Below are positions 1,425 to 42,230 of a DNA stretch of 64,000 nucleotides, one piece after another (positions within the stretch are counted from its first letter, which is position 1; every line of letters starts with the position of its first letter). The stretch is from Atribacter laminatus (GTDB taxonomy: Bacteria; Atribacterota; Atribacteria; Atribacterales; Atribacteraceae): positions 2,170,001-2,234,000 of the forward strand of contig NZ_CP065383.1 of the NCBI RefSeq assembly GCF_015775515.1. Direction: 5' to 3'. The notes below the pieces were generated by a model. The model was not told where the DNA came from. It searched no databases and saw nothing but the letters and a program-made list of their open reading frames with translations. Position numbers and translations under genes: made by a program.

Positions 1425-2618
1425 TTGACAAAGAATTGGAAAGATTTTCCCTGGAGATTAATCATTACCATCGCTTTAGTCGTTTTGGCTATTATTTCAG
1501 TATTTCCTGTCGAGAAAAAAATTCGTTTGGGTTTGGACTTGAAAGGAGGGTCCCATATCCTTTTAGAGTGTGTTGATACTCCAGAAGCTCCCCTAGATGA
1601 AGATTCAGTGAAACGAGTGGTTGAAATTGTTCGAAATCGAATAGACCAATTAGGAGTAGCTGAACCATTAATTCTCCGACAGGGTGAAAAAAGAGTCTTA
1701 GTTCAGCTTCCAGGAATTGCCGATCCCCAAAGAGCAGTGGAGATTATTGGACAAACTGCTTTGTTGGAATTTAAAGATGAAACTGGAAAAACTCTACTAA
1801 CCGGAGCAACACTTAAAAATGCTCAAGTTCAATATGACCGTTTTGGAAGACCAACAGTCTCTATATCTTTTAATGATGAGGGAGCAAAGCTATTTGGTCA
1901 GGCTACTACCACCAATGTTGGGAAACCAATTGGCATTTATCTTGATGGGAATTTAATATCCAATCCAGTTGTTCAGGAACCTATTCTCCAAGGTGATGCT
2001 CAAATTACTGGTCAGTTTACTCTGGATGAAGCCCAAAATTTAGCTATATTATTAAGAGCTGGTGCCCTTCCGGTTAAAGTGGTTGTTGCTGAAGAACGCT
2101 CGGTTGGGCCATCCCTTGGAAAAGACTCAATTACTAGTGGATTAAGAGCAGCAATAATCGCCGGTATATTTGTATTTATTTTTATGTTCCTCTACTACGG
2201 TTGGTTAGGAATTCTTGCTGATATTGCTTTAGTATGTTATGCACTGTTTACATTAGCTTTGCTTTCTGTTTTACAGGCGACTCTTACTTTGCCAGGTATT
2301 GCAGGATTTATCTTATCCATCGCCATGGCGGTTGATGCGAATGTTTTAATTTTTGAAAGAATCAAAGAAGAATATCGTGCTGGAAAAACATGGAGAGCAG
2401 CAATTCAAGCTGGTTTTGATAAGGCATTCCGAACCATTCTTGACTCGAACATAACCACCATTATTGCCGCTGCGTTGTTGTTCTTTATTGGATCGGGTTC
2501 GGTGCGTGGATTTGGAATTACTCTCACCTTAGGTATCATCTGTAGTATGTTTACTGGAATATGGGTGACAAGAGTGCTGATTGATTATCTCGCACCAAAA
2601 CCAACAATTAAATCGTAG
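1425..2618 (+). CDS. secD: Protein translocase subunit SecD
   Basis: Membrane component that, with SecF, uses the proton or sodium gradient to help release translocated proteins. It starts with TTG behind a GGGGG-rich ribosome site. An N-terminal membrane span is followed by the LGLDLKGG motif, a periplasmic P1 region, and a C-terminal RND-type bundle with AMAVDANVLIFERIKEE (the D4 motif). At 397 residues it is the short form typical of Gram-positive and deep-branching bacteria, not the ~615-residue E. coli form. SecF starts 18 bp downstream. Confidence 0.96.
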   Translation: MTKNWKDFPWRLIITIALVVLAIISVFPVEKKIRLGLDLKGGSHILLECVDTPEAPLDEDSVKRVVEIVRNRIDQLGVAEPLILRQGEKRVLVQLPGIADPQRAVEIIGQTALLEFKDETGKTLLTGATLKNAQVQYDRFGRPTVSISFNDEGAKLFGQATTTNVGKPIGIYLDGNLISNPVVQEPILQGDAQITGQFTLDEAQNLAILLRAGALPVKVVVAEERSVGPSLGKDSITSGLRAAIIAGIFVFIFMFLYYGWLGILADIALVCYALFTLALLSVLQATLTLPGIAGFILSIAMAVDANVLIFERIKEEYRAGKTWRAAIQAGFDKAFRTILDSNITTIIAAALLFFIGSGSVRGFGITLTLGIICSMFTGIWVTRVLIDYLAPKPTIKS

Positions 2619-2636
2619 GATGTGGAGGGACCCGAT

Positions 2637-3512
2637 ATGGAGATATTTGTAAAACCAAATTTTAATTTTGTTGATCATCGGAAATTACCTTATATAATTT
2701 GTATCATTTTTATCATACTTACTGTGGTTGGATTAATCCGTGGTATAAATTATGGTGTGGACTTTCGTGGTGGAACACTTCTTCAATACCATTTTACCCA
2801 AGAAGTAACCGCTGAACAAGTTCGGGAGGTATTAGACGAATTCGATCTTTCAGCAAGCACCATTCAAAGATTTTCAGACAATGAAGTTGCCATCCGAACA
2901 CCTCAGCTAACTTTGGACCAGAGAAATCAACTTACTGATACCTTAAAAAATCAAATTGGTGAACTAAAAATAGTTCGAAATGAAGAAGTTGGACCAACGG
3001 TTGGCAGTGAATTAAGGCGAGCGGCCTATTTGGCTCTCATTTTTTCTATTATAGGAATTTTGATATATGTTGGAATACGTTTTGAATTGCGGCCAGCTGT
3101 AACATCAGTTTTAGCGTTAGCCAATACCGGTATTATGACTTTGGGGTTGGTAGCATTATTAAATATTGAATTTGACACTACTATATTAGCAGCCCTTCTC
3201 ACAGTTTTAGGATATTCGATTAATGACTCTATTGTGGTTATGGATAGGATTCGTGAACGATTAAACTACCGCAAGCGAGAAGACGCCAAAACCCTTATCA
3301 ATACCAGTCTCAATGAAACCCTTTCGAGAACTATAATGACTGGAACCACTACAATAATTGCAGTTATAATCCTTTATTTTTTTGGAGGAAAAATGTTGCA
3401 ACCCTTTGCTCTTACGATGCTTATGGGTTTGTTATTCGGAACTTTTTCTTCAATATTTGTAGCTGCGATGCTTTTTTATGAGTGGGAAGTCAAAAAACCT
3501 CTGAGGAGGTAA
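2637..3512 (+). CDS. secF: Protein translocase subunit SecF
   Basis: Partner of SecD in protein export. It shows the N-terminal span, GVDFRGGT motif, and the transmembrane GYSINDSIVVMDRIRE motif; the C-terminus is hydrophobic with a short basic tail. The ATG at 2637 is preferred to the in-frame GTG at 2622, because GGAGGGA (2624-2630) sits 6 bp before the ATG and overlaps the GTG. The protein is 291 residues, normal for SecF. The gene is followed by recJ with a ribosome site inside the last codons of secF. Confidence 0.96.
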   Translation: MEIFVKPNFNFVDHRKLPYIICIIFIILTVVGLIRGINYGVDFRGGTLLQYHFTQEVTAEQVREVLDEFDLSASTIQRFSDNEVAIRTPQLTLDQRNQLTDTLKNQIGELKIVRNEEVGPTVGSELRRAAYLALIFSIIGILIYVGIRFELRPAVTSVLALANTGIMTLGLVALLNIEFDTTILAALLTVLGYSINDSIVVMDRIRERLNYRKREDAKTLINTSLNETLSRTIMTGTTTIIAVIILYFFGGKMLQPFALTMLMGLLFGTFSSIFVAAMLFYEWEVKKPLRR

Positions 3513-3517
3513 ACTAT

Positions 3518-5221
3518 TTGAATCAGAGGAAATGGCAGATCCGAAAAGTAAACAGAGGCTGTTTGAAACATTTAGCAGGCAGCCTCTGTTCGCCAATCTC
3601 GATTGCGCGAGTCCTTATGAATCGGGGTATTATTACCCCTAACCAGGCTCAGTCATTTTTAGACCCCGACCTGTCCTCTCTGGATAACCTTCGTTCTCTA
3701 CCCGACCTCAGAAAAGCTGTTTTGCTAATAGACGCAATTATTAAAGGAAATGGGAAAATCCTTATTTTTGGTGATTATGATGCTGATGGATTAACTGCTT
3801 GTGCGATACTATTTCTTTTTTTAAAAAAAATAACTCCTTACGTGGAAACTTACATCCCCAGTCGTTTTCATGAAGGGTATGGTTTATCTGAAAAAGCTGT
3901 AGAAAATATAATCAAAATGAATCCCGATTTGGTTATTACTGTGGACTCTGGGATAAAAGATATCAAAGGAGTCAGTATATTAAAAAATAAAGGAATAAAA
4001 ATTATTATAACCGATCATCACGTTCCCCACCCCGAGGAGAGACCTGATGCCGATGTTCTGGTTTCTACCTGGGATTGGAATGATAAAAAAATAATCCTTC
4101 CTTTATCTGGAGCCGGAGTAGCCTTAGCTTTAGCGCACGAATATGCCATATATCGGGGAATGACCCTTTCTCCTATTGAAGAATTTATTTCTCTAGCTTG
4201 TGTAGGAACAGTTGGAGATGTCGTCCCATTATTGGATGAGAATCGGGTTATAGTAAAATATGGTTTGAAGAAAATTAATCAAAATCCGGGTTGTGGCTTG
4301 CAAGCGCTTATAGAAGTGGTTGGTTTTAGTAATAAAGACATACAATCAGAGCAGATTGGTTATATTATTGCCCCTCGTTTAAATGCTGCCGGGAGAGTAG
4401 AAGACCCAAGGGCGGCATTTGAACTTTTGATTAGTGATAATTATCATGACGCTCTGCAACAAGCCAAGCTTCTTAATGAGTATAATCAAAAGCGACAAAA
4501 AGAAGAAACGAAAGTTTTTTCAAGCTTGATCGAAGACAAAAATAATCAGGAAGCAATGAAAGATGAAATCGTAGTGGTTTCTGGAAAGAACTGGAGTACT
4601 GGCGTTTTAGGAATAATTGCTTCCAGGTTAAGCGAACGCCTATTACGGCCGGTAATTGTACTGAGTGAAAACGATTCTGTCGCCGTTGGTTCAGCAAGAA
4701 GTATTTTAGGATTTAATATTACTGATTCTTTGGAAAAAGTCTCATCATTACTCATTCGGTATGGAGGCCATGAAATGGCTGCCGGTCTCAAAATTTCTTT
4801 AGATAATCTGGATACTTTCCGACAGCGATTAAATGAATTATTCAGTGAACGAGTAAAGATGCTGAAAGAAAAAAATGGTATAGTTGTAGATGCTCAGGTA
4901 ACCATGGCTGATGTTGATTCACAGTTTATGCTATGGTTAAAAAAACTGGAACCTTTTGGAGAAAAAAATCCGAATCCATTGTTTGTTTCTTCAGATGTTA
5001 TTGTCAATGAAAGGTGGTATTCGGGAAAAAACCGACAGCGGTTGGAATTAGTTCTTATGCAGAATAATAAAATGAGACAACATCGTATTGATGCAATGAT
5101 TCGGAGCGAGAATGTATCTGATTTAGCTTCAAGCTCACTGATCGATTTAATATTTGAAGTTCGTAAAGGATATTGGGATCAGCCTTATTTAAAGATTATG
5201 GATTGGCGAATAAAAAAATGA
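3518..5221 (+). CDS. recJ: Single-stranded-DNA-specific exonuclease RecJ
   Basis: 5'-3' single-strand exonuclease of recombination and mismatch repair, DHH superfamily. Motifs in order: FGDYDADG, TVDSG, ITDHHVPHP (the DHH signature), PRLNAAGR, then the DHHA1-type RYGGHEMAAG and a C-terminal OB-like region with a PFGEKNPNPLF segment. TTG at 3518 is chosen as start because GAGGAGGT (3503-3510) lies 7 bp upstream; an in-frame GTG at 3482 would overlap secF by 31 bp and lacks a site. 567 residues, normal for RecJ. Its 3' end abuts apt. Confidence 0.95.
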   Translation: MNQRKWQIRKVNRGCLKHLAGSLCSPISIARVLMNRGIITPNQAQSFLDPDLSSLDNLRSLPDLRKAVLLIDAIIKGNGKILIFGDYDADGLTACAILFLFLKKITPYVETYIPSRFHEGYGLSEKAVENIIKMNPDLVITVDSGIKDIKGVSILKNKGIKIIITDHHVPHPEERPDADVLVSTWDWNDKKIILPLSGAGVALALAHEYAIYRGMTLSPIEEFISLACVGTVGDVVPLLDENRVIVKYGLKKINQNPGCGLQALIEVVGFSNKDIQSEQIGYIIAPRLNAAGRVEDPRAAFELLISDNYHDALQQAKLLNEYNQKRQKEETKVFSSLIEDKNNQEAMKDEIVVVSGKNWSTGVLGIIASRLSERLLRPVIVLSENDSVAVGSARSILGFNITDSLEKVSSLLIRYGGHEMAAGLKISLDNLDTFRQRLNELFSERVKMLKEKNGIVVDAQVTMADVDSQFMLWLKKLEPFGEKNPNPLFVSSDVIVNERWYSGKNRQRLELVLMQNNKMRQHRIDAMIRSENVSDLASSSLIDLIFEVRKGYWDQPYLKIMDWRIKK

Positions 5222-5235
5222 AAGGGATGAAAGAA

Positions 5236-5751
5236 ATGGATTTAGCCTCTATTATTCGTAATATTCCTGATTTCCCAAAAGCTGGAATTCAATTTAAAGA
5301 TATAACAACTTTATTAAAAAACCATGATGCTTTTCGCCAAGCTGTCGATTCGCTCTATCATCTTTTTAAAGATCAAGAAGTGGACATCGTTGTTGGGATA
5401 GAAGCCCGAGGTTTTATTTTAGGTTCTGTCGTTGCCTATCTTTTGGATGCCGGATTTGTACCGGTTCGAAAAAAGGGAAAGTTACCTGCAGCAGTTAGAT
5501 CAAAGACTTATGATTTGGAATACGGCAGTGCCACCCTGGAAATGCACCTGGATGCCATAGAAAAAAATCAAAAAGTGGTGATTATCGATGATTTGCTGGC
5601 AACAGGTGGGACAGTCCGTGCCGTGTGTGAGATGATTGAGGAAGCCGGCGGAGAGATCGCCGGAATCGCCTTTTTAATAGAGTTAGAGTCTTTACAGGGG
5701 AGAAAAGCTATCGATAAATATCAGGTTTACTCTTTGATTAAGTTAGACTGA
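5236..5751 (+). CDS. apt: Adenine phosphoribosyltransferase
   Basis: Salvages adenine plus PRPP to AMP. The PRPP-binding motif VVIIDDLLATGGT, the GIEARGF loop and the VRKKGKLPA segment are all present. Several in-frame Met codons are possible (5218, 5227, 5236); I choose 5236 (MDLASII) because it matches the usual start of this family (MDLKxx in B. subtilis) and has AAAGGGATGAAAG just upstream. 171 residues. The recJ-apt-rel order is a widespread bacterial arrangement. Certain as to family. Confidence 0.94.
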   Translation: MDLASIIRNIPDFPKAGIQFKDITTLLKNHDAFRQAVDSLYHLFKDQEVDIVVGIEARGFILGSVVAYLLDAGFVPVRKKGKLPAAVRSKTYDLEYGSATLEMHLDAIEKNQKVVIIDDLLATGGTVRAVCEMIEEAGGEIAGIAFLIELESLQGRKAIDKYQVYSLIKLD

Positions 5752-5996
5752 CCAAATTTTCCCTTCTCACTTAATGGGAGAAGTTAGTGATGAGAGTGAT
5801 AATGCTTATCTAAAACCGTTATTGCATGGTGTTGAACCATTCTTTGGCTAGAAGACGTGACAATCTGATCCACCTACTTCGTTGGTGGGGGATGTCACAA
5901 AGTGACGTGGTGAGTCTGGGTTTATCATATTTTGTATTTTATGATAATTAATTAAGAAGCTCACACCTTTCTTTCTGAAAAAAAAGGGAGGGAAAT
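5752..5996. repeat. Intergenic region with small inverted repeats
   Basis: Non-coding gap between apt and rel. It contains an inverted pair CTTCTC/GGAGAAG (about 5763-5783), a CCACC/GGTGG hairpin with GTCACaaaGTGAC beside it (about 5870-5908), and a separate TTATCATA/TATGATAA inverted repeat at 5922-5929 and 5940-5947 with a 10-bp spacer. The first elements look like pieces of the dispersed repeat family seen elsewhere in the window. The last pair could be an operator or leader hairpin for rel, but nothing proves this. Confidence 0.4.
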
Positions 5997-8207
5997 ATGC
6001 TTCGTAATGAGGAAGAAATAAATAGTATTTTTTCAAAAGCTATAACTCTTGAATCACTTCAAGAAAAAATTGATTCATATAACCCCAATGGCGACCGAGA
6101 ACTGATAAAAAAAGCTTATGATTACTCATTAGCTGCTCACACCGGACAGAGTCGCCTTTCGGGCGAGCCCTATATAATTCATCCTTTATCAGTAGCTCAC
6201 ATTGTTGCCGACCTTCGAATGGATGACAGCACTATTGCCGCTGCTTTGCTTCACGATGTGTTGGAAGATACCAAATCGACAGAAATTCAAGTTGGTGAAA
6301 TATTTGGAAAAGAAATAACTCTTTTAGTGAAAGGAGTAAGCAAGTTAAATGTTGGTTTTCATTTTACTTCCAAAGAGGAAGAACAAATAGAAAATTACAG
6401 ACGTCTCTTTGTAGCAATGGCTGAAGATATTCGGGTCATTATTATAAAATTAGCTGATCGTCTTCACAACATGAGAACTTTAAAATTCCAATACCGGGAC
6501 AAAAAGGAGTTGATAGCAAGAGAGACCTTGGAAATTTTTGCCCCAATCGCACATCGTCTTGGTATTGGTATGATTCAGACCGAATTGGAGAATTTAAGTC
6601 TTTATTTTCTTGATCCAGAATCTTACTGTAATATCCAACAAGGTATTGAAAAAATTAGAGATCACCGTGAAAAACAAATCCAGGAAGCGACAGAAAAGCT
6701 TTCTCAAAGGATTCAACAAGCCAATTTAGTTGTAGAAATCCAAAGCCGTTTGAAAAACATTTATAGTATTTATTTGAAAATCAATCGTCAAAATGTAAGC
6801 CTTGAAGATCTACATGATTTAATTGCTCTTCGAGTAATAACCAATACTGTTGAAGAGTGCTATGCAGTATTAGGACTGATACACTCTCTTTGGGTGCCGG
6901 TTGCGGGAAGGTTTAAAGATTATATTGCTCTCCCCAAATCGAATATGTACCAATCACTTCATACCACGGTAATCGGTCCTGGTGGAGTTCCAATGGAAAT
7001 TCAAATCCGAACCAAAGAAATGCATCATGTTGCTGAATATGGAATTGCTGCCCATTGGAGGTACAAAGAAGGGAAATCCGCCGATTCGGCTGATGCCTTT
7101 AATGAACGCATGGCTTGGTTAAGGCAAATATTGGAATGGCAACAAGACCTGAGAACCACCCATGAATTTGTGGAAAGCCTCAAAATTGACCTTTTTGATG
7201 ATGAAGTTTATGTTTTTACACCCAAGGGAGATTTAAAAAAACTTCCCAAAGGTTCAAGTCCAATCGATTTTGCATATTTAATTCATACTGAAGTGGGGAA
7301 TAACTGCATTGGAGCGCGAGTGAATAAGCAGATTGTCCCACTGGATTATGAACTAAAAAGCGGAGACATTGTAGAAATTATTTCTTCCCGTTCCTCTTCT
7401 GGACCTAGCCTAGACTGGTTGAGAATAGCAAAAACTCCTGCGGCTCGAAATAAAATCCGAGCATTTCTGCGCAGAAAGAATCGAGAAACCAATCGAGAAA
7501 GAGGAAAATTATTTATGGAGAGAGAGCTGGAAAAGTTTTCGCTTACTCCAGAAGAACAAAACCTGGTGAATGCTAAAATTACCGAGTTTATGGAAGCAAA
7601 TAACTATAAAACAATTGAGGATTTGCATGTTATAATCGGAGAAGGACGACTTACCATTCATCAATTTATTGGAAAAGTTGTTCCATTTGATATTCGAAAA
7701 CGTTTTCAAACTCGAAGAAAAGCAGATACAAAAAAAACTGCTCAAACCAGTGGAGATGGGGTTATCATTCAAGGAGCGACTGGTTTGGCTGTTAAGTTAG
7801 CTCGTTGTTGTACTCCAATTCCTGGCGATAAAATTGTCGGTTATGTAACTCTGGGGAAAGGCATTACTATTCATCGACTTGATTGCCATAATTTAGTTAG
7901 ATTGACCCAAGATGAAGAGCGTTTAGTGGAGGCAGAATGGGATGAAAATTATGGCCGCTTTTACGATGCTGGTTTGGTTGTTGATGCTTTGGATCGCCCA
8001 AAGCTTCTGGTGGATATTACCAATACAGTAGCCAATTATGGTGTAAGTATTCGATCAGTCCATGCTCATTCTATGATGAACGATGCTCGTATATATTTAG
8101 TAATATCGGTAAAAAATAAAGTTGAGCTTGATAATTTATTTCGTGAAATAAAAAAGGTTTCCAATGTTAGGAGTGTACGAAGAGGAGGAATATTTGGTTT
8201 ACGGTGA
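5997..8207 (+). CDS. rel: Bifunctional (p)ppGpp synthetase/hydrolase Rel
   Basis: Stringent-response enzyme that makes and degrades (p)ppGpp. Domain order: HD hydrolase (HD at residues 86-87 in ALLHDVLEDT), synthetase domain with GRFKDYIALPKSNMYQSLHTT, TGS domain (YVFTPKGDLKKLPKGSSPIDFAY), a helical/zinc-finger region with ARCCTPIPGD, and a C-terminal ACT domain. The RxKD form of the charged loop in GRFKD is typical of bifunctional Rel/SpoT enzymes, not monofunctional RelA. 736 residues, full length. The start ATG has a GGGAGGG site. It overlaps dtd by 4 bp. Confidence 0.96.
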   Translation: MLRNEEEINSIFSKAITLESLQEKIDSYNPNGDRELIKKAYDYSLAAHTGQSRLSGEPYIIHPLSVAHIVADLRMDDSTIAAALLHDVLEDTKSTEIQVGEIFGKEITLLVKGVSKLNVGFHFTSKEEEQIENYRRLFVAMAEDIRVIIIKLADRLHNMRTLKFQYRDKKELIARETLEIFAPIAHRLGIGMIQTELENLSLYFLDPESYCNIQQGIEKIRDHREKQIQEATEKLSQRIQQANLVVEIQSRLKNIYSIYLKINRQNVSLEDLHDLIALRVITNTVEECYAVLGLIHSLWVPVAGRFKDYIALPKSNMYQSLHTTVIGPGGVPMEIQIRTKEMHHVAEYGIAAHWRYKEGKSADSADAFNERMAWLRQILEWQQDLRTTHEFVESLKIDLFDDEVYVFTPKGDLKKLPKGSSPIDFAYLIHTEVGNNCIGARVNKQIVPLDYELKSGDIVEIISSRSSSGPSLDWLRIAKTPAARNKIRAFLRRKNRETNRERGKLFMERELEKFSLTPEEQNLVNAKITEFMEANNYKTIEDLHVIIGEGRLTIHQFIGKVVPFDIRKRFQTRRKADTKKTAQTSGDGVIIQGATGLAVKLARCCTPIPGDKIVGYVTLGKGITIHRLDCHNLVRLTQDEERLVEAEWDENYGRFYDAGLVVDALDRPKLLVDITNTVANYGVSIRSVHAHSMMNDARIYLVISVKNKVELDNLFREIKKVSNVRSVRRGGIFGLR

Positions 8208-8659
8208 AAGCGCTTATTCAAAGAGTGAACAAAGCACAAGTTTTAATTGACGGGAAGATAGTTGGAAAAATTGGGAAAGGAATGGTGGTATTTTTAGGAG
8301 TTGGTAAAAACGATAATTCACTAGACATAGATTTTATGGTGAGAAAAATTCCTCAGCTTCGAATATTCGATGATGTTCAAGGAAAAATGAATATCTGTCT
8401 AAAGGAAATCCAAGGCGAGATTCTCCTTATATCACAATTTACTCTTTATGGAAATTGTAGAAGAGGGCTTCGACCGAGTTATGATGAAGCGGCAGCACCC
8501 CTAGAAGCCAAGAAACTTTATGATCAAGTCGCTCAAAATCTGCGTGATCAGAATATAACCATTGCTGAAGGGGTTTTCGGAGCGATGATGCAAGTTGAAT
8601 TGAGCAACGATGGTCCAGTGACGATTTTGCTTGATAGCAAGGAAAGGAGAAAAGCATGA
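8204..8659 (+). CDS. dtd: D-aminoacyl-tRNA deacylase
   Basis: Proofreading enzyme that hydrolyses D-aminoacyl-tRNAs and Gly-tRNA(Ala). It carries the two family signatures: SQFTLYG near the middle and the cross-subunit NDGPVT segment near the end. 151 residues, normal length. It starts with GTG overlapping the rel stop by 4 bp, so translation is likely coupled; the purine-rich AGAGGAGGA (8181-8189) inside rel is rather far (about 14 bp). The rel-dtd pair is common in bacteria. Confidence 0.94.
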   Translation: MKALIQRVNKAQVLIDGKIVGKIGKGMVVFLGVGKNDNSLDIDFMVRKIPQLRIFDDVQGKMNICLKEIQGEILLISQFTLYGNCRRGLRPSYDEAAAPLEAKKLYDQVAQNLRDQNITIAEGVFGAMMQVELSNDGPVTILLDSKERRKA

Positions 8660-9315
8660 GTAACAATGTAAGAGTCGAAGTCTATACCCTCGGTGATTTA
8701 ATGACCAATTGTTACTGTCTTTATAATAGCAATGAAGCTCTCCTCATTGACCCTGGTGGCCCTTCTCAAGAGTTGGTCGAATTCATAACTTCTAAAAATT
8801 TAACTTTAAGATATATTATTAATACCCACGGTCATTTTGATCATATTAACGGAAATGATTTTTTTAAAAACTATTTTCCCTTTGCCAAGATAATAGTTTA
8901 TGAAGCTGATGTGGCCTATCTTAACCACCCTGATCTAAACTTATCGGTAGAATTTTTTCGACCTTATCAATCGCCTGAACCGGATATTCTAATTCGAGGA
9001 AAAAAAGAACTTTTTGAACTGTTTGATGAAGAAGTTTACTTTTATCATAGTCCTGGCCATACACCGGGAAGTATGTGTTTATCCTTTCCTAAACAAAAAT
9101 GGCTTTTTTGCGGAGATACACTTTTTTCTGGTTCAATAGGAAGAACCGATCATCCGGGGGGTTCATTTCAGGAGATCCTTGAATCCCTGACCATGATCAT
9201 GCAATGTTTTGATGATGAAACCAGAGTTTTTCCTGGTCACGGCCCGGAAACAACGATTGAAAATGAGAAAAAAATGAATCCGTATGTCCTTGAATACGTG
9301 AATTGTATTAGTTAA
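8656..9315 (+). CDS. MBL-fold metallohydrolase (glyoxalase II-like)
   Basis: Metallo-beta-lactamase fold hydrolase, YcbL/GloB-like subgroup, which usually hydrolyses thioesters such as S-lactoyl compounds. The metal ligands are all visible: THGHFDH, GHTPGS, GDTLFSGSIGR and the final FPGHGPE. 219 residues is the short form without the C-terminal substrate domain of true glyoxalase II, so the natural substrate is unknown. ATGA overlap with dtd shows it belongs to the same transcript. No signal peptide, so cytoplasmic. Confidence 0.85.
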   Translation: MSNNVRVEVYTLGDLMTNCYCLYNSNEALLIDPGGPSQELVEFITSKNLTLRYIINTHGHFDHINGNDFFKNYFPFAKIIVYEADVAYLNHPDLNLSVEFFRPYQSPEPDILIRGKKELFELFDEEVYFYHSPGHTPGSMCLSFPKQKWLFCGDTLFSGSIGRTDHPGGSFQEILESLTMIMQCFDDETRVFPGHGPETTIENEKKMNPYVLEYVNCIS

Positions 9316-9565
9316 TTCCTCACATTATTTTATAAAGACACTCCCCTAACCCCCCTCAATGGAGGAATTCATTTGATGGTATTTTTTGGATAATCCTTCA
9401 CACTGCATGGCAGCGCCAGATGAGAATGAAAATAGTTGCCACCCTCATCCTGAATCTCTCCCATCAGGGGAGAAGAAAAAAGAAAAAATAGAGAAGGTGA
9501 GAAGGAGATTGAAATACTCAAAATTGGGTGCAATAAATTTCACCCCTACATAAGAAAACCAAGTA
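9316..9565. repeat. Intergenic mosaic repeat
   Basis: Non-coding spacer between two convergent genes. It contains modules shared with other gaps in this window: the CCCCTAACCCCCCTCAATGG / GAGGAATT block, a GATGGTATTTTTTGGATAATCC block, and a CCTCATCCTGAATCTCTCCC block. No rho-independent terminator with a clean T-run was identified. I regard it as a degraded copy of the dispersed repeat family. Confidence 0.5.
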
Positions 9566-10915
9566 TTAAATTGAATTAATGATATCTATATATTTTTGAA
9601 CAATAGCTTGAGCTCTTTCGGCATCTCGAGATTCAGCAAAGATACGAAGGAGAGGTTCGGTACCTGAAGGTCGGATTAAAAGCCAAGAACCGTCGGGATA
9701 AAAAACTTTGTATCCATCAATCGTAATCCGATTTTCTTCTTCCGAAGTTAATCGATCTATTTCACTCAATATTTTCTCTTTTTTCTCAGGATTAACAGGC
9801 TTTTTCATTTTAATCTGGAAATATTGAGGAAGTTCTTTCAGAAGGTCATCAAGAGATTTTTCTTTGGTTGCCATGATGTGAAGGATTCGGGCTGCTGCTA
9901 TAGCGCCGTCTCTTCCCCAAACAAAGTCTGGAAAGATCATTCCTCCGTTCTCTTCACAACCAAAAATCCCCTTATTTTCTTGTAAAGCTTTGGCTACCAC
10001 TAGGTCACCGACAGCGGTGGCAAGAAATCCCCTTCCGGTTTTTATAGCAATATCCTTTAACATACTGGAGGTCGCAACGGTTGTTACAATTGGGCCGGGG
10101 ATATTCTGCGAGGCTAATTCATTGGCAACCAAACTTACACTATAGTCACCTGGAACAAATTCGCCATTCGGTCGAATCACAATTAAGCGATCACCGTCTC
10201 CATCCTGAGCAAAACCGATATGAAAGGATGCATGGGTAATAAGAGTGGTAAGATCGGTTAAATTATCGGGAGTAGGCTCAGGATTTCTCCCTGGAAAGCG
10301 ACCATCTGGATGGGCATTGAGACTTACAACTCGGCAGCCAAGATCGCTTAATAACTGAGGGGTAATCAAACATGGCGCACCGTTTGCACAGTCAACAACA
10401 ATTCGGAATCGGCTTTGTTGGATTAGAGGGAGATTCACTTTAGCAACAATTGCTCGAATATAATCATCGTTTACATCTCGTTTAATAGTTTTTTGCGGAA
10501 CATCCGTCCAGGGAACCAAATGATATTTTTCAGAATAAAAAATTTTTTCTACATCAACATCCTTTTCGCGATCTAAACCTTTACCGGTTTTTTCCATAAA
10601 TTTAATGCCATTCCATTGAGGAGGGTTATGGCTGGCAGTAATCATTGCTCCCCAAGCATCCCATTGTCGACAAGCCCATTGAAGGGTGGGAGTAGCGGTG
10701 AGCCCTAATTCAATCACTTGGCAACCACAAGCAAGGAGGCCGGAAATAACGGCATCATAGATCATTTCACTGTGTTTTCGGGCATCTCTTCCCACAACAA
10801 CGATTTCTCGATTGATATAAGTTCCGAAGCTGTAAGCTAATTTTAATGCAAAATCCGGTGTGAGCACTTCATTTACAATTCGCCGAATACCAAAAGTTCC
10901 GAATAGCTTTTCCAT
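9566..10915 (-). CDS. Phosphoglucomutase/phosphomannomutase family protein
   Basis: Alpha-D-phosphohexomutase that moves phosphate between C1 and C6 of hexose phosphates. All four active-site loops are present: TASHNP (phosphoserine), DGDGDR (metal), EENGG (sugar specificity) and RPSGTEP (phosphate binding). 449 residues. The EENGG loop fits glucose/mannose or glucosamine phosphate; the sequence alone does not separate GlmM from ManB/Pgm, and the TASHNP Ser favours these over acetylglucosamine mutases. The start ATG has a TAAGGAGGT site 5 bp upstream. It is transcribed alone on the minus strand, divergent from the GAF-ANTAR gene. Confidence 0.9.
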   Translation of the reverse strand: MEKLFGTFGIRRIVNEVLTPDFALKLAYSFGTYINREIVVVGRDARKHSEMIYDAVISGLLACGCQVIELGLTATPTLQWACRQWDAWGAMITASHNPPQWNGIKFMEKTGKGLDREKDVDVEKIFYSEKYHLVPWTDVPQKTIKRDVNDDYIRAIVAKVNLPLIQQSRFRIVVDCANGAPCLITPQLLSDLGCRVVSLNAHPDGRFPGRNPEPTPDNLTDLTTLITHASFHIGFAQDGDGDRLIVIRPNGEFVPGDYSVSLVANELASQNIPGPIVTTVATSSMLKDIAIKTGRGFLATAVGDLVVAKALQENKGIFGCEENGGMIFPDFVWGRDGAIAAARILHIMATKEKSLDDLLKELPQYFQIKMKKPVNPEKKEKILSEIDRLTSEEENRITIDGYKVFYPDGSWLLIRPSGTEPLLRIFAESRDAERAQAIVQKYIDIINSI

Positions 10916-36176: not shown

Positions 36177-36553
36177 TAAGCAGTAAAGTATGAAATAATT
36201 GGTATAATTTGAATCGACTTGACAAAAAATGATCTGATTAAAGATTACCGTTCAATGTGTATTTCCAAGTTGGAGGTGTAAATGGTAAGCTGTTGATTTT
36301 TTAGCCAGAGGGCAACAATTCCCTCTGGCTTTTTCATTTGAATCGATTTGATAAAAAAATTCTGATTAATAGGTTTTATTCATTGAAGCCGATAAAAAAG
36401 TTACTCTTTAAATTTCATGTCTTGCTTTCTCATTTTTTACTAAGTAAAGGTTTTGAATGATTTATTTTGCTCAAGACGAATTGTTGATCATCCATCGTTT
36501 TTACTATTTTTGCTAAAATTACTGAACTATAAAATAAATAATGGAGGAATCTC
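36177..36553. other. Intergenic region with terminator and short direct repeats
   Basis: About 375 bp. A block ATTTGAATCGACTTGACAAA (from about 36208) recurs, slightly changed, as ATTTGAATCGATTTGATAAA (from about 36336), flanking a mini-unit that has a GGAGGT site, a four-codon ORF (MVSC) at 36280-36294 and a terminator. The remainder before 36554 is AT-rich promoter-like sequence with TATAAA about 20 bp upstream of the dehydrogenase ATG. Confidence 0.5.
36303..36335 (+). terminator. Intrinsic terminator
   Basis: AGCCAGAGGG pairs with CCCTCTGGCT (36303-36312 with 36321-36330) across an 8-nt loop, followed by TTTTTC. It ends transcripts from the OsmC gene or from the small unit just upstream. 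Confidence 0.82.
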
Positions 36554-37591
36554 ATGAAAGCTGCAGTTTTAGAAGGAATTGACCAACTCGTTGTTAAAGA
36601 AGTACCAGATTATAAAGTTGGGTTGGGAGAAGTTCTAGTTCGAGTGAAAACCTGTGCAGTTTGTGGGTCCGATTTACGAATTATGCATTCAGGAAATCCT
36701 CGTGTGAAGTATCCTCAAATAGTTGGACATGAAATCGCCGGAGAAGTTGTTGAAGTGGGAGATGGTGTTGAACGGCTAGGAGTGGGAGACCGAGTAGCCG
36801 TTGGTGCTGATGTTCCTTGTGGGAAATGTTATTGGTGCCAGAATGGTATGGGAACCAACTGTGCTATTAATTATGCGGTCGGTTATCAATTTCCTGGTGG
36901 TTTTGCTGAGTATATCCTTTTGAATGAACTCACCGTAAACCAACAGGTCGTAAATTTGATACCTGATAACCTATCCTTTGATGAAGCCAGCTTGGCAGAG
37001 CCCTTGGCCTGTGCGATTAATGGATTGGAAATGAGTCAATTGGGAGTTGGAGATACCCTATGTATTATAGGGGCTGGTCCAATTGGTTGCATGATGATCG
37101 AATTAGGAAGACACATGGGAGCAACCAATATCATAGTTATTCAAAGGTCGCAAAGGCGTTTGGATATGGCTAAAAAATATAGCGCCGATCATTACTTCCT
37201 CAGTGATGACCCTGATATTGATGCGAAAGTGAAAGGAGTAACTAAGGGCGAAGGGCCTGATGTAATCATGATTACTTGCGCTTCGCCTGAAGCCCAAGAA
37301 CAGTCTCTCCTTTTAGCACGGCATCGAGCACGAATTAATTTTTTTGGAGGCTTAGCTTCAACCGCTAGAAAACTCAACATATCCAGTAATCTTATTCATT
37401 ATAAAGAACTTACCATATTAGGAAGTCATGGCAGCCTACCTCGCCATCATAAGAAAGCAATTAAAATCATTGATAGAGGAATGGTTCATACGGCTCAATA
37501 TATAACTCATCGTTTTCCTTTGGATCAAATTCATGAAGCTTTCCATGCTGCTGAATCAAGAGAAGGCTTGAAAGTGGTGGTGAACCCCTAA
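36554..37591 (+). CDS. Zinc-dependent alcohol/polyol dehydrogenase (MDR family)
   Basis: Medium-chain dehydrogenase oxidising a secondary alcohol with NAD(P). Catalytic zinc region CAVCGSD and GHE, structural-zinc cluster CGKCYWCQNGMGTNC, and Rossmann motif GAGPIGCM. 345 residues, similar to threonine or sorbitol dehydrogenases. ATGGAGGAATCTC precedes the ATG. First gene of a four-gene carbohydrate operon; the next gene begins 2 bp downstream. Substrate not determined. Confidence 0.87.
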   Translation: MKAAVLEGIDQLVVKEVPDYKVGLGEVLVRVKTCAVCGSDLRIMHSGNPRVKYPQIVGHEIAGEVVEVGDGVERLGVGDRVAVGADVPCGKCYWCQNGMGTNCAINYAVGYQFPGGFAEYILLNELTVNQQVVNLIPDNLSFDEASLAEPLACAINGLEMSQLGVGDTLCIIGAGPIGCMMIELGRHMGATNIIVIQRSQRRLDMAKKYSADHYFLSDDPDIDAKVKGVTKGEGPDVIMITCASPEAQEQSLLLARHRARINFFGGLASTARKLNISSNLIHYKELTILGSHGSLPRHHKKAIKIIDRGMVHTAQYITHRFPLDQIHEAFHAAESREGLKVVVNP

Positions 37592-37593
37592 AG

Positions 37594-38643
37594 ATGGATA
37601 CCATGAAAGCATTAGTTCTACTGAAAAAGGGCGATATTCAATATCAAAGCGTTCCAAAACCAAAGCCTGAAAAAGGAGAAGCTCTAATACGGGTAAAAGC
37701 CTGTGGTATATGTGGATCAGATATTCCTCGAATTTATGGAGATATTGCTTATTATTATCCCTCAATCCCCGGACACGAGTTTGCTGGAGAAGTTGAAGAA
37801 GTTGGCGATCTCAGTCAGGACGGTAAATGGGTTGGGAAAAGAGTGACGGTTTTTCCCCTTATTCCCTGCTATCATTGTCGATTATGTCAAATTGGGTTAT
37901 ATGAAATGTGTGAAAATTATGGATATATTGGCTCGCGACGTGACGGCGCTTTTGCCGAATATGTTACTGTTCCGGTTGCCAATTGTATGGAGCTTCCTGA
38001 AAAGGTTTCTTATGAATCAGGGGCTTTCAGCGAACCGGCGGCAGTGACCCTACATGCTCTGCGGAGGTCATCGATACCATTTGGAAAAACCGTTGCTGTT
38101 TTTGGGTTGGGGCCCATTGGAGTGTTGTTTGGAATCTGGGCAAAAATTTCAGGAACTAGGCGTGTAATTGGCTTCGATATCGATCAGCAAAAAGTTAATT
38201 TTGCCCGAGAGAATGGTTTTGATGATGCTATTGTTCCCGAACCAGAAAAATTGAAAAGAGCAGTGGAAAGCCATACCGAAGCTTTGGGTTTCGATTTAAC
38301 CTGTGAGGCTTCGGGGAGCAACCTTGCCTTAGTAAATTCATTGAAAGTTACTCATAAATTCGGAGAGGTCCTTCTCTTAGGAAACCAGGAACGGAACGTG
38401 ACCTTAACTCCTCAAGATATGAGTCTAATTTTGAGAAAACAGTTAACATTATACGGAACCTGGAATTCTCGATTTACCCATATTGGATCGGATTGGAAAG
38501 CGGTTTTGGAGTTTGAGAATTCAGGTCAAGCAAATTTTAAACCATTCATTTCTCATCGTCTTCCTTTACAAGAAGCTCCTGAGTTCATTCAGCTGATGAG
38601 AGATAAAAAGGTATTCTACAACAAGGTTCTCATCATTCCATGA
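37594..38643 (+). CDS. Galactitol-1-phosphate 5-dehydrogenase-like zinc dehydrogenase
   Basis: Second MDR dehydrogenase, distinct from its neighbour. GICGSDIPRIYGDIAYYYPSIPGHEFAGE and YIGSRRDGAFAEYV match E. coli GatD closely at these blocks; structural zinc CYHCRLCQIGLYEMC; Rossmann GLGPIGVL. 349 residues. ATG at 37594 or 37603 is possible; spacing is so tight (2 bp after the previous stop) that coupling is likely. It probably oxidises a sugar-alcohol or its phosphate at C5, by analogy. Confidence 0.83.
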   Translation: MDTMKALVLLKKGDIQYQSVPKPKPEKGEALIRVKACGICGSDIPRIYGDIAYYYPSIPGHEFAGEVEEVGDLSQDGKWVGKRVTVFPLIPCYHCRLCQIGLYEMCENYGYIGSRRDGAFAEYVTVPVANCMELPEKVSYESGAFSEPAAVTLHALRRSSIPFGKTVAVFGLGPIGVLFGIWAKISGTRRVIGFDIDQQKVNFARENGFDDAIVPEPEKLKRAVESHTEALGFDLTCEASGSNLALVNSLKVTHKFGEVLLLGNQERNVTLTPQDMSLILRKQLTLYGTWNSRFTHIGSDWKAVLEFENSGQANFKPFISHRLPLQEAPEFIQLMRDKKVFYNKVLIIP

Positions 38644-38704
38644 AAAACCGATTCACAAAAGGTTTAATAAATCAACTAAAAATTCCGAAGGAGGAAAGTC
38701 AGCC

Positions 38705-39385
38705 ATGAATGAGGAAACGATAAAAATTAGTGCATCCCTGGATTGTGCTAATTATTTAGATTTGTTATCAGATATTCGGAAGTTAGAAGAAGGCGGGGTC
38801 AACATGCTTCACCTGGATATCATGGATGGACATTTTGTACCAAATTATGCTCTGGGTACCAATTTACTCCGAAAACTCCGTCCTCAAACCAGCCTTCTTT
38901 TTGATGTTCATTTCATGACCAGTAATCCTGAGGTGTCAATTCCCATTTTTGCCGACTTGGGTGCCGATATCATTACCTTTCATGTTGAAACCACATCTCG
39001 TCTTCATCAGATGGTCAGTTCTATAAAAAATTTGGGGAAAAAAGCCGGTTTAGCCTTAAATCCTTCAACGCCACCAGATATTTTAGAGTATATTTTTCCT
39101 TATATCGACATGGTATTGGTTATGACGGTTGATCCAGGATTTGTTGGACAAAAATTTGTACCAGAAGTAGTTAAAAAAGTTCAAATCATCAAAAGCCTGA
39201 TTGATTCCAGACATTTAAATATTGATATTGCCGTAGATGGAGGGATTGGCGAGAAGACAGTTCCACTTTTAAAAAAGGCCGGTGCCAACGTATTTATTGC
39301 TGGGACTTCTAGTATATTTTCTGGAAAAGATGAAATTGAAATTGCTGCTAGAAAATTTAGAGAACTGTGTGAAAAAACTTATTAA
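38705..39385 (+). CDS. Ribulose-phosphate/allulose-6-phosphate 3-epimerase family protein
   Basis: TIM-barrel epimerase at C3 of a ketose phosphate. Metal and acid/base residues visible in LHLDIMDGHFVPN, VHFMTSNPE, MTVDPGFVGQKF and the VDGGIG loop. Its first strand reads ISASLDCANYLDL, not the usual SPSILSADF of housekeeping Rpe, and resembles AlsE-like specialised epimerases somewhat. 226 residues. AAGGAGGA upstream of the ATG. In a sugar operon, so a catabolic rather than pentose-cycle role is favoured. Confidence 0.85.
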   Translation: MNEETIKISASLDCANYLDLLSDIRKLEEGGVNMLHLDIMDGHFVPNYALGTNLLRKLRPQTSLLFDVHFMTSNPEVSIPIFADLGADIITFHVETTSRLHQMVSSIKNLGKKAGLALNPSTPPDILEYIFPYIDMVLVMTVDPGFVGQKFVPEVVKKVQIIKSLIDSRHLNIDIAVDGGIGEKTVPLLKKAGANVFIAGTSSIFSGKDEIEIAARKFRELCEKTY

Positions 39386-39398
39386 GAGGTGAAAAAAT

Positions 39399-40631
39399 AT
39401 GTCTTTTTATGAAGATCTTTTTAATCAACTCTTGACCTGGAAAAAAATCGATACCCATGAGCATTTTCTTCCTCAAAATACTTATCAAGATCATCCGGAT
39501 ATTTTATTTGCCATTCTTCGTGAAAGTTATCTTCCCTGGATTGTGTATGGTGCACGGGATCATAATACTGTAACCGTAACCCGAGAAGGTCTTTTAAAAG
39601 GAATGAAAAAAATACCAGCCAGTGCTTTTTTACGGTATATCATTGAAGCTTTTCAGTATATGTATGGTTTTTCCGATGATCAAATCAAAGAAGAAAATTG
39701 GGATCAACTATCCCAGCTTATTCGAGAAAGTTATTCAAAGAAAAATATGTTGAACTATTGGATATTTGATAAGTTCAATGTCGAAAAAGTTGTCCATGAT
39801 CGATATTGGAAATTAGGTGAATTCGATATTGACCAGAGCCATTACTTTGCCGTTTTTAGAATTGATCCGTTGTTCTGTGGCTATTCAAAAGAAAAATTAA
39901 ATCATGACCGAATGAACCCGCATATTGAAGCGGCCAAACAGGGAATTCACATTGATACATTTGATGAATATCTTGCTTACATAGATCAACTTTTTAAAAA
40001 AGCAGTTGCTGAGGGTATCGGGACCATGAAATGTGCGGTTGCCTACGACCGGACTCTCCGCTTTGAAAGAGTCGAGAAAGAGCAAGCCGAGAAGGCTTTT
40101 TATAAAAAAGATGGTACCGAGCTCCCTTCTGAAGTGAGAGATTTTCAGGACTATATTTTCCATTATTGCCTTCAAAAAGCAGTAGATTATCGTTTACCGG
40201 TCCAAATTCATACCGGTCCGGGAAAAGCTTTCGAGACGGCTGCCTCACATTTAGGGAATATTTTTGAGGAATACCATAACTTAAAAATATCTCTTTTCCA
40301 TGGGAGTTTTCCTTGGGTTGGGGAACCAGGAGCAATGTCACTCTTTTATCCGAACCTGTATTTAGACTTGGTTTGGTTACCGGTTATGTCACCTTCCTAT
40401 GCTGTTTTGGCTTTATCGGAATGGATAGAAACTGCCGGTGGAGCTCGAATCATGATGGGAGGAGATTCCTGGAATGCTGAAGGGGCAGTTGGGTCAATTC
40501 TTTATAATCTCAAAACCATTGCTCAAGTATTGGCGGAAAAAGTTGAAAAGAAATATTTGAGCCGGTCATCAGCCGAACAAATTGGAAAAATGATTCTTTA
40601 CAATAATCCCATGGAGTTTTTAAGCAGATAA
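39399..40631 (+). CDS. Amidohydrolase-superfamily protein (TIM barrel)
   Basis: Metal-dependent barrel enzyme of the Amidohydro_2/uronate-isomerase-like group. HxH at residues 20 and 22 (IDTHEHF), QIHTGPG, LFHGSFPW and the C-terminal GGDSWNAEG supply the usual metal ligands and the final Asp. 410 residues. Specific activity not recognisable; in this setting it could open a lactone or isomerise/hydrolyse a sugar acid produced by the dehydrogenases. 13 bp after the epimerase gene, last in the operon. Confidence 0.78.
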   Translation: MSFYEDLFNQLLTWKKIDTHEHFLPQNTYQDHPDILFAILRESYLPWIVYGARDHNTVTVTREGLLKGMKKIPASAFLRYIIEAFQYMYGFSDDQIKEENWDQLSQLIRESYSKKNMLNYWIFDKFNVEKVVHDRYWKLGEFDIDQSHYFAVFRIDPLFCGYSKEKLNHDRMNPHIEAAKQGIHIDTFDEYLAYIDQLFKKAVAEGIGTMKCAVAYDRTLRFERVEKEQAEKAFYKKDGTELPSEVRDFQDYIFHYCLQKAVDYRLPVQIHTGPGKAFETAASHLGNIFEEYHNLKISLFHGSFPWVGEPGAMSLFYPNLYLDLVWLPVMSPSYAVLALSEWIETAGGARIMMGGDSWNAEGAVGSILYNLKTIAQVLAEKVEKKYLSRSSAEQIGKMILYNNPMEFLSR

Positions 40632-41042: not shown

Positions 41043-42230
41043 CTATGCCTGAAGATAAGCATAGGTTTCTCGAGCTATCATTAATTCCTCGTTAGTTGGG
41101 ATTACCCAGACTTCGACTTGAGAAGTATTATTATGAATTGATTTAGGAAGAGGATCGTTGGATCGGTTTTTTTGACTGTCGATTACAATCCCTACTTGAT
41201 CGAGGTTATGGCATATTTTCTCTCGAACGAAAGAATCATTTTCACCGATACCTCCAGTAAAAACCAACGCATCGAGCCCATTCATTAAAGCGATAAATGA
41301 GCCAATATATTTTTTTACCTGGTAAACAAAAACCTCGATTGTGAGCAAAGCCCGCTCGTTTCCTTCTTTAGCAGCTTTTTCCAATTCCCAAATTTCGGTA
41401 CTTTGTCCAGAAATGCCAAGTAAACCTGACTTCTTCACCAATAATTCGTTGATTGCAGAATAACTCATCTTCTCTTTTTCTTGGAGGTAGGTAATAACCT
41501 GAGGATCAAAATCTCCCGGTCGAGAGGACATTATAATTCCACTTTGCGGAGTGAAACCACTGGAAATATCTAATGATTTTCCATCTTGAATTGCACAGAT
41601 GCTGCTTCCACTTCCCAAATGGCAGGAAATAACCCGACTAGATGCGGTAGTCAATTGAGATATTTTTTCCGATATATATCGATGGGAATTTCCATGAAAA
41701 CCAAATTTAAAAATTCCATGTTTTTGACAAAGTTCGAAAGGGAGCCCATAGGTATAGTGAGCTAAGGGAATGCTTTGGTGGAAGGTGGTTTCAAAAACTC
41801 CAACCAAAGGGACTTGAGGGAGAAACCTTTGGAAAATGTCGATGGTAAGTAATGTTGGTGAATTGTGAACCGGTGTAACGCTTTCTAATTCTTGAAGAGC
41901 ACTAATTACCTGAAAATCAATCAAAGAAGTGGAATTGACTCGATTTCCTCCATTGATGCACTTAATGCCGATTGCCTTAAGCTCTTTCAAATCGTTGAGA
42001 GGTCCGTATTCAACGATGTTATTTATTATGGTTTTTAAACCTTGTTCATGAGAACACTGGGGCATGGAGGTTTGAAATATTTTCCCGTTAATCTTATGTT
42101 CCCAAAGCGAGTCATCGCGATACAATTGTTTTATTGCTCCTCGGCCAAGGGAAATTTCTTGTTCTTTCTCAATTTCATAGAGTTCATATTTGATTGAAGA
42201 CCCACCGCTGTTTAAAGCCATAATTTTCAT
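41043..42230 (-). CDS. Acetate/propionate-kinase family protein with altered active site
   Basis: ASKHA-fold acyl-phosphate kinase, full length (395 residues). Aligns throughout with AckA: NSGGSSIKYEL, TPVHNSP (H122), GFHGNSHRYIS (H179), CHLGSGSSI, SSRPGDFDP (Arg), FTGGIGEN and NEELMIARET (Glu). Two residues essential in Methanosarcina AckA differ: R91 is Lys here (K90, in IKCINGG) and D148 is Glu (E147, in VFETTFHQ). The changes are conservative but atypical, so it may be a slower or differently specific kinase. ATGA overlap with ttuA upstream; no pta nearby. Confidence 0.8.
   Translation of the reverse strand: MKIMALNSGGSSIKYELYEIEKEQEISLGRGAIKQLYRDDSLWEHKINGKIFQTSMPQCSHEQGLKTIINNIVEYGPLNDLKELKAIGIKCINGGNRVNSTSLIDFQVISALQELESVTPVHNSPTLLTIDIFQRFLPQVPLVGVFETTFHQSIPLAHYTYGLPFELCQKHGIFKFGFHGNSHRYISEKISQLTTASSRVISCHLGSGSSICAIQDGKSLDISSGFTPQSGIIMSSRPGDFDPQVITYLQEKEKMSYSAINELLVKKSGLLGISGQSTEIWELEKAAKEGNERALLTIEVFVYQVKKYIGSFIALMNGLDALVFTGGIGENDSFVREKICHNLDQVGIVIDSQKNRSNDPLPKSIHNNTSQVEVWVIPTNEELMIARETYAYLQA

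Follow-up and report, generated by a model that had tools for sequence, protein, structure and literature searches.

Gene content of the locus

A run of four genes, here called ADH1, ADH2, EPI and AHY, lies in a 64,000-nucleotide stretch of Atribacter laminatus DNA (the window), which covers positions 2170001-2234000 of a genome consisting of a single contig of 3,101,225 bases and has a G+C content of 38.0%. The four genes encode two zinc dehydrogenases, a sugar-phosphate 3-epimerase and an amidohydrolase. Comparison with other genomes shows that ADH1, ADH2 and EPI (the triad) are a conserved three-enzyme set whose dehydrogenases carry opposite cofactor signatures, and that AHY is a lineage-specific passenger. 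The genes and the residues discussed below are collected in Table 1. The intergenic gaps are 2, 61 and 13 bases, and the original prediction, that four tightly packed genes form one operon which includes no kinase, transporter or regulator, holds for this genome.

Table 1. Features of the locus, with positions counted from the first base of the window
Feature	Position	Strand	Description
ADH1	36554-37591	+	345 aa; open reading frame intact; zinc-dependent medium-chain dehydrogenase/reductase (MDR), Arg-Ser (NADP-type) clade
ADH2	37594-38643	+	349 aa; open reading frame intact; GatD-like zinc MDR dehydrogenase, NAD-type
EPI	38705-39385	+	226 aa; open reading frame intact; sugar-phosphate 3-epimerase of the Rpe/AlsE superfamily, second copy besides the housekeeping Rpe
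AHY	39399-40631	+	410 aa; open reading frame intact; amidohydrolase of the uronate isomerase clan; linkage to the triad confined to the window's family
Gln197-Arg198-Ser199 codons of ADH1	37142..37150	+	NAD-type relatives have Asp/Glu at the first position
Asp195 codon of ADH2	38176..38178	+	acidic residue expected of an NAD-type enzyme
H20-x-H22 of AHY	39456..39464	+	metal ligands, end of strand 1; invariant in 17/17
K211 of AHY	40029..40031	+	strand 4 (207-213 in the model); invariant in 11/11
H271 of AHY	40209..40211	+	strand 5; invariant in 11/11
H301 of AHY	40299..40301	+	strand 6; invariant in 11/11; no aligned His in uronate isomerase TM0064
D356 of AHY	40464..40466	+	followed by S-W where uronate isomerases show x-R
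Intrinsic terminator	36303..36330	+	10-pair stem and T tail, from a terminator scan; between the upstream OsmC-like gene and ADH1

The window proteins were assigned to families by profile searches against Pfam and NCBIfam. Both dehydrogenases match ADH_N and ADH_zinc_N and keep the zinc ligand motifs, and ADH2 keeps the four structural-zinc cysteines. The top match of ADH2 is the GatD model NF007642, at 200.6 bits against a cut-off of 550; among three Escherichia coli enzymes compared GatD is the closest (32% identity), and the closest solved structure by sequence is 4a2c. The prediction of two zinc dehydrogenases, one of them GatD-like, was therefore sound, as was that of an AlsE/Rpe-like 3-epimerase, EPI having a Pfam Ribul_P_3_epim match. 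An inositol pathway by way of IolM (NF041097) was considered and rejected, the two dehydrogenases scoring 192.2 and 183.4 bits on a model with a cut-off of 450.

Conservation of the triad within the order

The order was represented by 25 genomes (G000-G024), of which G000-G009 form the family of the window. Orthologues were called at identities of at least 69% for ADH1, 64% for EPI and 50% for ADH2, a few copies being cut by contig ends. ADH1 and EPI are each present in 24 genomes and ADH2 in 23, with the full triad in 23/25. The two incomplete cases are G022 (EPI only; genome 75% complete) and G024 (an ADH1 fragment only; 60% complete). The triad lies on one contig in 21 of the 23, in the order ADH1-ADH2-EPI, and is split over contigs in G009 and G020. 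The window's ADH1 is 74-78% identical to its counterparts in the other families of the order. For the rest of the phylum 25 genomes were searched (G025-G049); ADH1 matches there do not exceed 38% identity, and none was counted as an orthologue. The best explanation of this distribution is that the functional unit is the triad and not the four genes; as the synteny shows here, what looks in a single genome like a neat four-gene operon can consist of a three-gene unit and a passenger.

The fourth gene, AHY

AHY adjoins EPI on its downstream side in 10/10 genomes of the window's family. Because the linkage is kept even in the four genomes in which AHY has diverged to 50-57% identity, the adjacency is more than chance. 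Outside the family AHY occurs at 49-56% identity in five genomes of the order. It is unlinked to the triad in G011, G012, G019 and G021, lies in G020 on a 3.6 kb contig without any triad gene, and appears in G024 as a fragment at the end of a contig; the genome search of the order set did not find it in G010, G013, G015, G016, G017, G018, G022 or G023. In G014 the gene is reduced to its last 46 residues, 89% identical to those of G012 and set among the same flanking genes. Since G014 deleted AHY and kept the triad intact, the triad does not need it: AHY is dispensable, a lineage-specific neighbour that the operon gained later, in the window's family.

One search gave 12 loci with AHY-related genes: 11 come from metagenome-assembled genomes (MAGs) that carry the name Candidatus Atribacteria, and the twelfth is from an Actinomycetota MAG. 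The last (L014) holds a distant relative together with a seeming rhamnose mutarotase, an FGGY kinase, parts of a corrinoid methyltransferase and sugar ATP-binding cassette (ABC) transporter genes, all identified by eye; here and below, gene names in loci that had no family search were recognised by eye from the first part of the protein and do not count as a result. The neighbours of AHY relatives were also considered as a guide to its substrate, and this was abandoned: they differ from locus to locus, with a glutamine synthetase family gene in one context, ABC genes for sugar or inositol in others and a seeming hydroxyacid dehydrogenase in another, have nothing in common and point to no shared substrate.

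The predicted structure of AHY (pLDDT 88.1, pTM 0.89) is closest to 4i6v (Z 36.2), the Thermotoga maritima uronate isomerase 1j5s (Z 31.0) and 2qpx (Z 30.9). With 1j5s, at rank 2, 392 residues align with a root mean square deviation of 3.2, and AHY has the uronate isomerase fold, for which the earlier label of uronate-isomerase-like amidohydrolase is a fair one. At E values up to 0.001 AHY matches Pfam Amidohydro_2 only and no NCBIfam model, and so falls outside the UxaC profile. In uronate isomerases the arginine of a D-x-R motif on strand 8 binds the carboxylate of the substrate. This motif reads D-S-R in TM0064, D-A-R in BH0493 and D-S-W in 13/13 aligned AHY orthologues, a tryptophan replacing the arginine, and the suggestion that the pathway processes an acid is left unsupported. 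Binuclear (subtype I) amidohydrolases have an HxH motif, a lysine on strand 4, histidines on strands 5 and 6 and an aspartate on strand 8. All of these are found in AHY as H20, H22, K211, H271, H301 and D356, K211 standing at the position of the bridging lysine; the distant paralogues in L002 and L034 lack K211, H271 and H301. AHY shares with UxaC the fold, the HxH motif and the final aspartate, but differs from it in the missing arginine and in the extra strand 4 lysine and strand 6 histidine. Taken together, the sequence and the model are best explained by a putative metal-dependent, hydrolase-type member of the uronate isomerase clan.

The original prediction had suggested that all four enzymes could form one pathway, in which a polyol is oxidised twice and epimerised at C3 and the acid is processed; the product handled by AHY would be an acid or lactone. 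The arguments for it are the constant position of AHY after EPI in the family, the fold, and the few distant AHY relatives in sugar or inositol clusters (L014 and L002 by eye; L166 and L171 as annotated). We find it distinctly unlikely, given that across the rest of the order AHY is unlinked, not found, fragmentary or, as in G014, deleted beside an intact triad, and that the D-x-R arginine is absent.

The triad outside Atribacterota

A search outside the phylum covered 386 genomes and gave ADH1 with the Arg-Ser signature described in the next section, at 51-55% identity, in G087, G232, G326 and G088. ADH1 loci were compared from 46 distinct genomes outside Atribacterota, mostly as stretches reaching just 1.5 kb upstream, and 19 wide loci (L213, L214, L216, L276-L291) were read. 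The complete triad was found in three other phyla, namely in G087 and G232 (L213, L214), in family f46, and in G394 and G395. Over the 46 genomes ADH2 stands beside ADH1 in 33 and EPI in 13. Among the 19 wide loci seven have the full triad, six have ADH2-ADH1 (one cut at a contig end), one has EPI-ADH1 and five have ADH1 alone (one cut).

In the phylum of G088, ADH1 was found at an E value of 1e-108 or better in 57/84 genomes, 55 of which belong to family f46. The order EPI-ADH2-ADH1 is seen in 5/5 wide loci of this family (L216, L276, L277, L280, L281). Four of the five continue with a phosphoribosyltransferase-like gene and seeming secD and secF genes, and L216 ends there; family searches on these downstream genes covered L276 and, in L277, the first of them only. 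The phylum of G326 has ADH1 in 28/68 genomes, with the full triad in the stretches from G394 and G395.

G087 and G232 are both of the genomes examined from one phylum, and in each EPI, a gene for a protein resembling a triosephosphate isomerase (TIM) barrel of the xylose isomerase kind, ADH2 and ADH1 form one run. Pfam recognises the TIM-barrel-like protein of G232 and not that of G087. Since this gene adjoins EPI, one might propose for AHY the role of an aldose-ketose isomerase with a new scaffold, which feeds the triad and takes the place of the TIM barrel; both folds are known for aldose-ketose isomerases. However, K211 and H301 of AHY are absent from the aligned uronate isomerase and the loss of AHY is tolerated in G014, and we regard this proposal as very improbable.

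The run in G232 (L214, G232:C84, positions 2313-10580) also includes genes for a RuBisCO-like protein, an isopropylmalate-synthase-like protein and a GlcD-like protein. The RuBisCO-like protein scores 400.4 bits on the model for the MtnW-type 2,3-diketo-5-methylthiopentyl-1-phosphate (DK-MTP-1-P) enolase, barely below the cut-off of 409. In L278 (G452:C165, positions 3949-5178) a gene resembling spore photoproduct lyase lies between a xylose-isomerase-like TIM barrel gene and ADH2-ADH1.

Cofactor signatures of the two dehydrogenases

The cofactor site was read where strand 2 of the Rossmann fold ends. In ADH1 the acidic residue of strand 2 is replaced and Arg-Ser follows, which is the signature of NADP-type enzymes. 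The tripeptide Gln-Arg-Ser is present in 22/22 orthologues of a first set (19 from Atribacterota and three others), and 18/18 paralogues have Asp or Glu at its first position; in the same set ADH2 is acidic (Asp/Glu) at the cofactor site in 27/27. Outside Atribacterota Arg-Ser is kept by ADH1 in 46/46 distinct genomes (41 QRS, 4 NRS and 1 LRS), for a total of 65/65 when the 19 Atribacterota are added, and ADH2 has Asp in 43/43 rows, some genomes being counted twice. The Arg-Ser enzymes form one clade (35/35 sampled; support 1.0). In yeast xylitol dehydrogenase the changes D207A/I208R/F209S plus N211R are reported to reverse the preference to NADP (PMC7973232). From this precedent and the Arg-Ser signature we infer that ADH1 would be NADP(H)-linked, and ADH2, with its acidic residue, would be NAD(H)-linked. 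It is consequently doubtful that a polyol is oxidised twice, as had been suggested, for opposite signatures fit opposed roles of the dehydrogenases at least as well. The idea that the triad supplies NADPH in place of a missing oxidative pentose phosphate pathway was rejected: the glucose-6-phosphate and 6-phosphogluconate dehydrogenase families are both in the genome, so the triad is not the sole possible source.

The epimerase

EPI is 38% identical to AlsE and 35% identical to Rpe of E. coli. It keeps the catalytic and phosphate-site motifs and misses the AlsE model NF007266 (191 bits; cut-off 271). The genome has another Rpe-like gene at G000:C1:90656, which the trees place with E. coli Rpe (0.96 in one tree, 90 in another). 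It follows that EPI is neither the orthologue of the housekeeping Rpe nor the sole Rpe of the genome, a role that was considered for it, and it would be free to act on another substrate.

Proposed reactions and their alternatives

The reading that we place first, tentatively and at rather less than an even chance, is that the triad interconverts two stereoisomeric polyols, probably as phosphates, by way of ketose phosphates. ADH2, GatD-like and NAD-linked, would oxidise one polyol or polyol phosphate to a 2-ketose phosphate, EPI would invert carbon 3 of this intermediate, and the NADP-linked ADH1 would reduce the C3 epimer. The direction would be fixed by the use of NAD for the oxidation and NADPH for the reduction. 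An internal origin of the substrate is probable, because the gene run has neither a transporter nor a sugar kinase: in the loci read, no transporter, sugar kinase or regulator was seen inside the triad run, that of G232 having extra enzymes. In its wider form, which we hold to be rather doubtful, the proposal would be that a module present in at least four phyla inverts a stereocentre of an internal polyol or sugar phosphate, driven one way by the split in cofactors, and either supplies a rare polyol phosphate or clears a wrongly made one. If true, this would add a new route for making or removing such a compound, common to several phyla.

A number of results weigh against this proposal. The strongest against a strict three-step module is that the phylum of G326 has ADH1 genes standing alone. 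Outside Atribacterota 13/46 genomes have no ADH2 in the stretch, and just two of these end at a contig edge upstream; as ADH1 is so often without its partners there, it has a use by itself. In G095 EPI is paired with an NAD-type ADH1. EPI also passes the Rpe model TIGR01163 (229.5 bits; cut-off 212.6). The deep part of the EPI tree, including the placement of EPI itself, has no resolved branching, so that a single EPI lineage across the phyla cannot be claimed, and the EPI partners may have been recruited separately in different phyla. Nor are the neighbourhoods of the triad empty of transport and regulatory genes. The S component of an energy-coupling factor (ECF) transporter lies directly beside EPI, in convergent orientation, in four genomes of family f2 (G010, G013, G015 and G017; L150, L148, L147 and L145), a major facilitator superfamily gene lies about 2 kb past EPI in G019, and in f46 a sigma-54 activator is located 5-6 kb past ADH1, beyond the Sec genes. 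Their presence makes an internal substrate harder to argue for. The A. laminatus genome also has kinases and sugar ABC genes that are not linked to the triad.

The ECF gene was found beside EPI in 4/13 order loci searched, and in G012 a related S-component-like gene is one gene away. Two S components were run against the NCBIfam folate-family model and reached 112 and 113 bits (cut-off 60); the Pfam match, to the riboflavin type, is weaker. The gene is on the opposite strand, and no substrate was drawn from it.

The lone ADH1 genes and the match of EPI to the Rpe model would also suit the view that the three genes have no joint function, and are separate dehydrogenases and a spare Rpe that are adjacent by happenstance. 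The same three genes occur together in four phyla, and we consider this view unlikely.

The alternative that ranks next after the oxidise-epimerise-reduce sequence is a catabolic one, the entry of polyol phosphates into pentose phosphate metabolism; we judge it possible though not probable. Each dehydrogenase would oxidise a different polyol phosphate, as arabitol phosphates are oxidised to xylulose 5-phosphate and ribulose 5-phosphate, EPI would join the two products, and transport and phosphorylation would be encoded elsewhere. PMC6685057 describes an arabitol operon of Bacillus methanolicus that encodes an arabitol phosphate dehydrogenase and, in a further gene, what is annotated as a galactitol-1-phosphate 5-dehydrogenase, ADH2 is itself GatD-like, and A. 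laminatus uses mannitol and sorbitol (PMC7736352).

Paralogues of the triad enzymes also favour catabolic entry: both here and in relatives they have FGGY kinases and ABC genes as neighbours. In A. laminatus an ADH1 paralogue (38-39% identity) and an ADH2 paralogue (37%) lie next to a microcompartment locus (L154, G000:C1:622001-642000) with genes for an EutN-type shell protein, RpiB, a DeoC-type aldolase, an aldehyde dehydrogenase, PTAC, an FGGY kinase and a seeming sugar ABC transporter. In G010 paralogues of ADH1 and EPI occur with an FGGY kinase, an L-fucose-isomerase-like protein and an apiosidase-like enzyme (L161), and G013 and G007 have similar pairs beside ABC-like genes. Such contexts show that the ADH1, ADH2 and EPI families work among sugar and polyol genes. 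The dehydrogenase paralogues found in them have an acidic, NAD-type residue at the cofactor site. Against catabolic entry stand the gene run without transporter or sugar kinase in the loci read, the 74-78% identity of ADH1 across the families of the order, which is more like that of a core function, and the NADP signature of ADH1, which is unexpected for a fermentative catabolic step as such steps are generally understood.

L161, L162 and L163 are operons that pair an ADH1 paralogue with an EPI paralogue. Plasmid relatives of ADH1 (32-38% identity among the matches listed) were considered as a source for the substrate and set aside, the two loci read being clusters of sugar kinase, regulator and ABC genes.

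Comparison with known systems

Searches of an open-licence library gave no paper describing the combination of enzymes, in agreement with the original statement that it matches no known pathway; the protein families themselves are known. Routine annotation of such familiar families is likely to give a sorbitol or galactitol-phosphate dehydrogenase and an Rpe, and to overlook the set.

The atl operon of B. methanolicus resembles the triad in its polyol-phosphate dehydrogenase and the second one annotated as galactitol-1-phosphate 5-dehydrogenase, the assayed partner being xylulose 5-phosphate. It differs in having its own phosphotransferase system (PTS) genes and in that NADH was used in the assay, and the available text of PMC6685057 does not mention a linked epimerase. 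The gat operon of E. coli has in GatD the nearest relative of ADH2, but includes PTS and aldolase genes and no epimerase, and ADH2 is far below the GatD cut-off. The als operon of E. coli offers in AlsE a relative of EPI within the Rpe superfamily; unlike the triad it has its own ABC transporter and kinase, and EPI misses the AlsE model. The Thermotoga inositol pathway (IolG-IolM-IolN-IolO) brings two oxidations, a hydrolase and an epimerase together in one cluster. The IolM model matches both dehydrogenases of the window weakly, whereas its cut-off is missed and no NCBIfam model matches AHY.

Signals and genes flanking the run

The terminator upstream of ADH1 has its stem and T tail present in 5/5 aligned genus copies, and its conservation suggests that the four genes begin their own unit. 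Over the window as a whole the terminator scan gave sites as numerous as in shuffled sequence. A window scan for promoter-like sites gave fewer than in the shuffles, and an Rfam scan of the window for an RNA element ahead of the operon gave one match, a tRNA elsewhere. Directly ahead of the terminator there is a GGAGGTG box (36270-36330 for box and terminator together), which is conserved in 5/5 genus copies without an obvious conserved reading frame downstream.

The neighbours tested by family are OsmC and PhoU genes upstream and an acetate-kinase-family gene downstream on the opposite strand (41043-42230, minus strand). The counterpart of the latter in the sister genome G005 (L039) looks much shortened, and that in G001 (L012) looks split.

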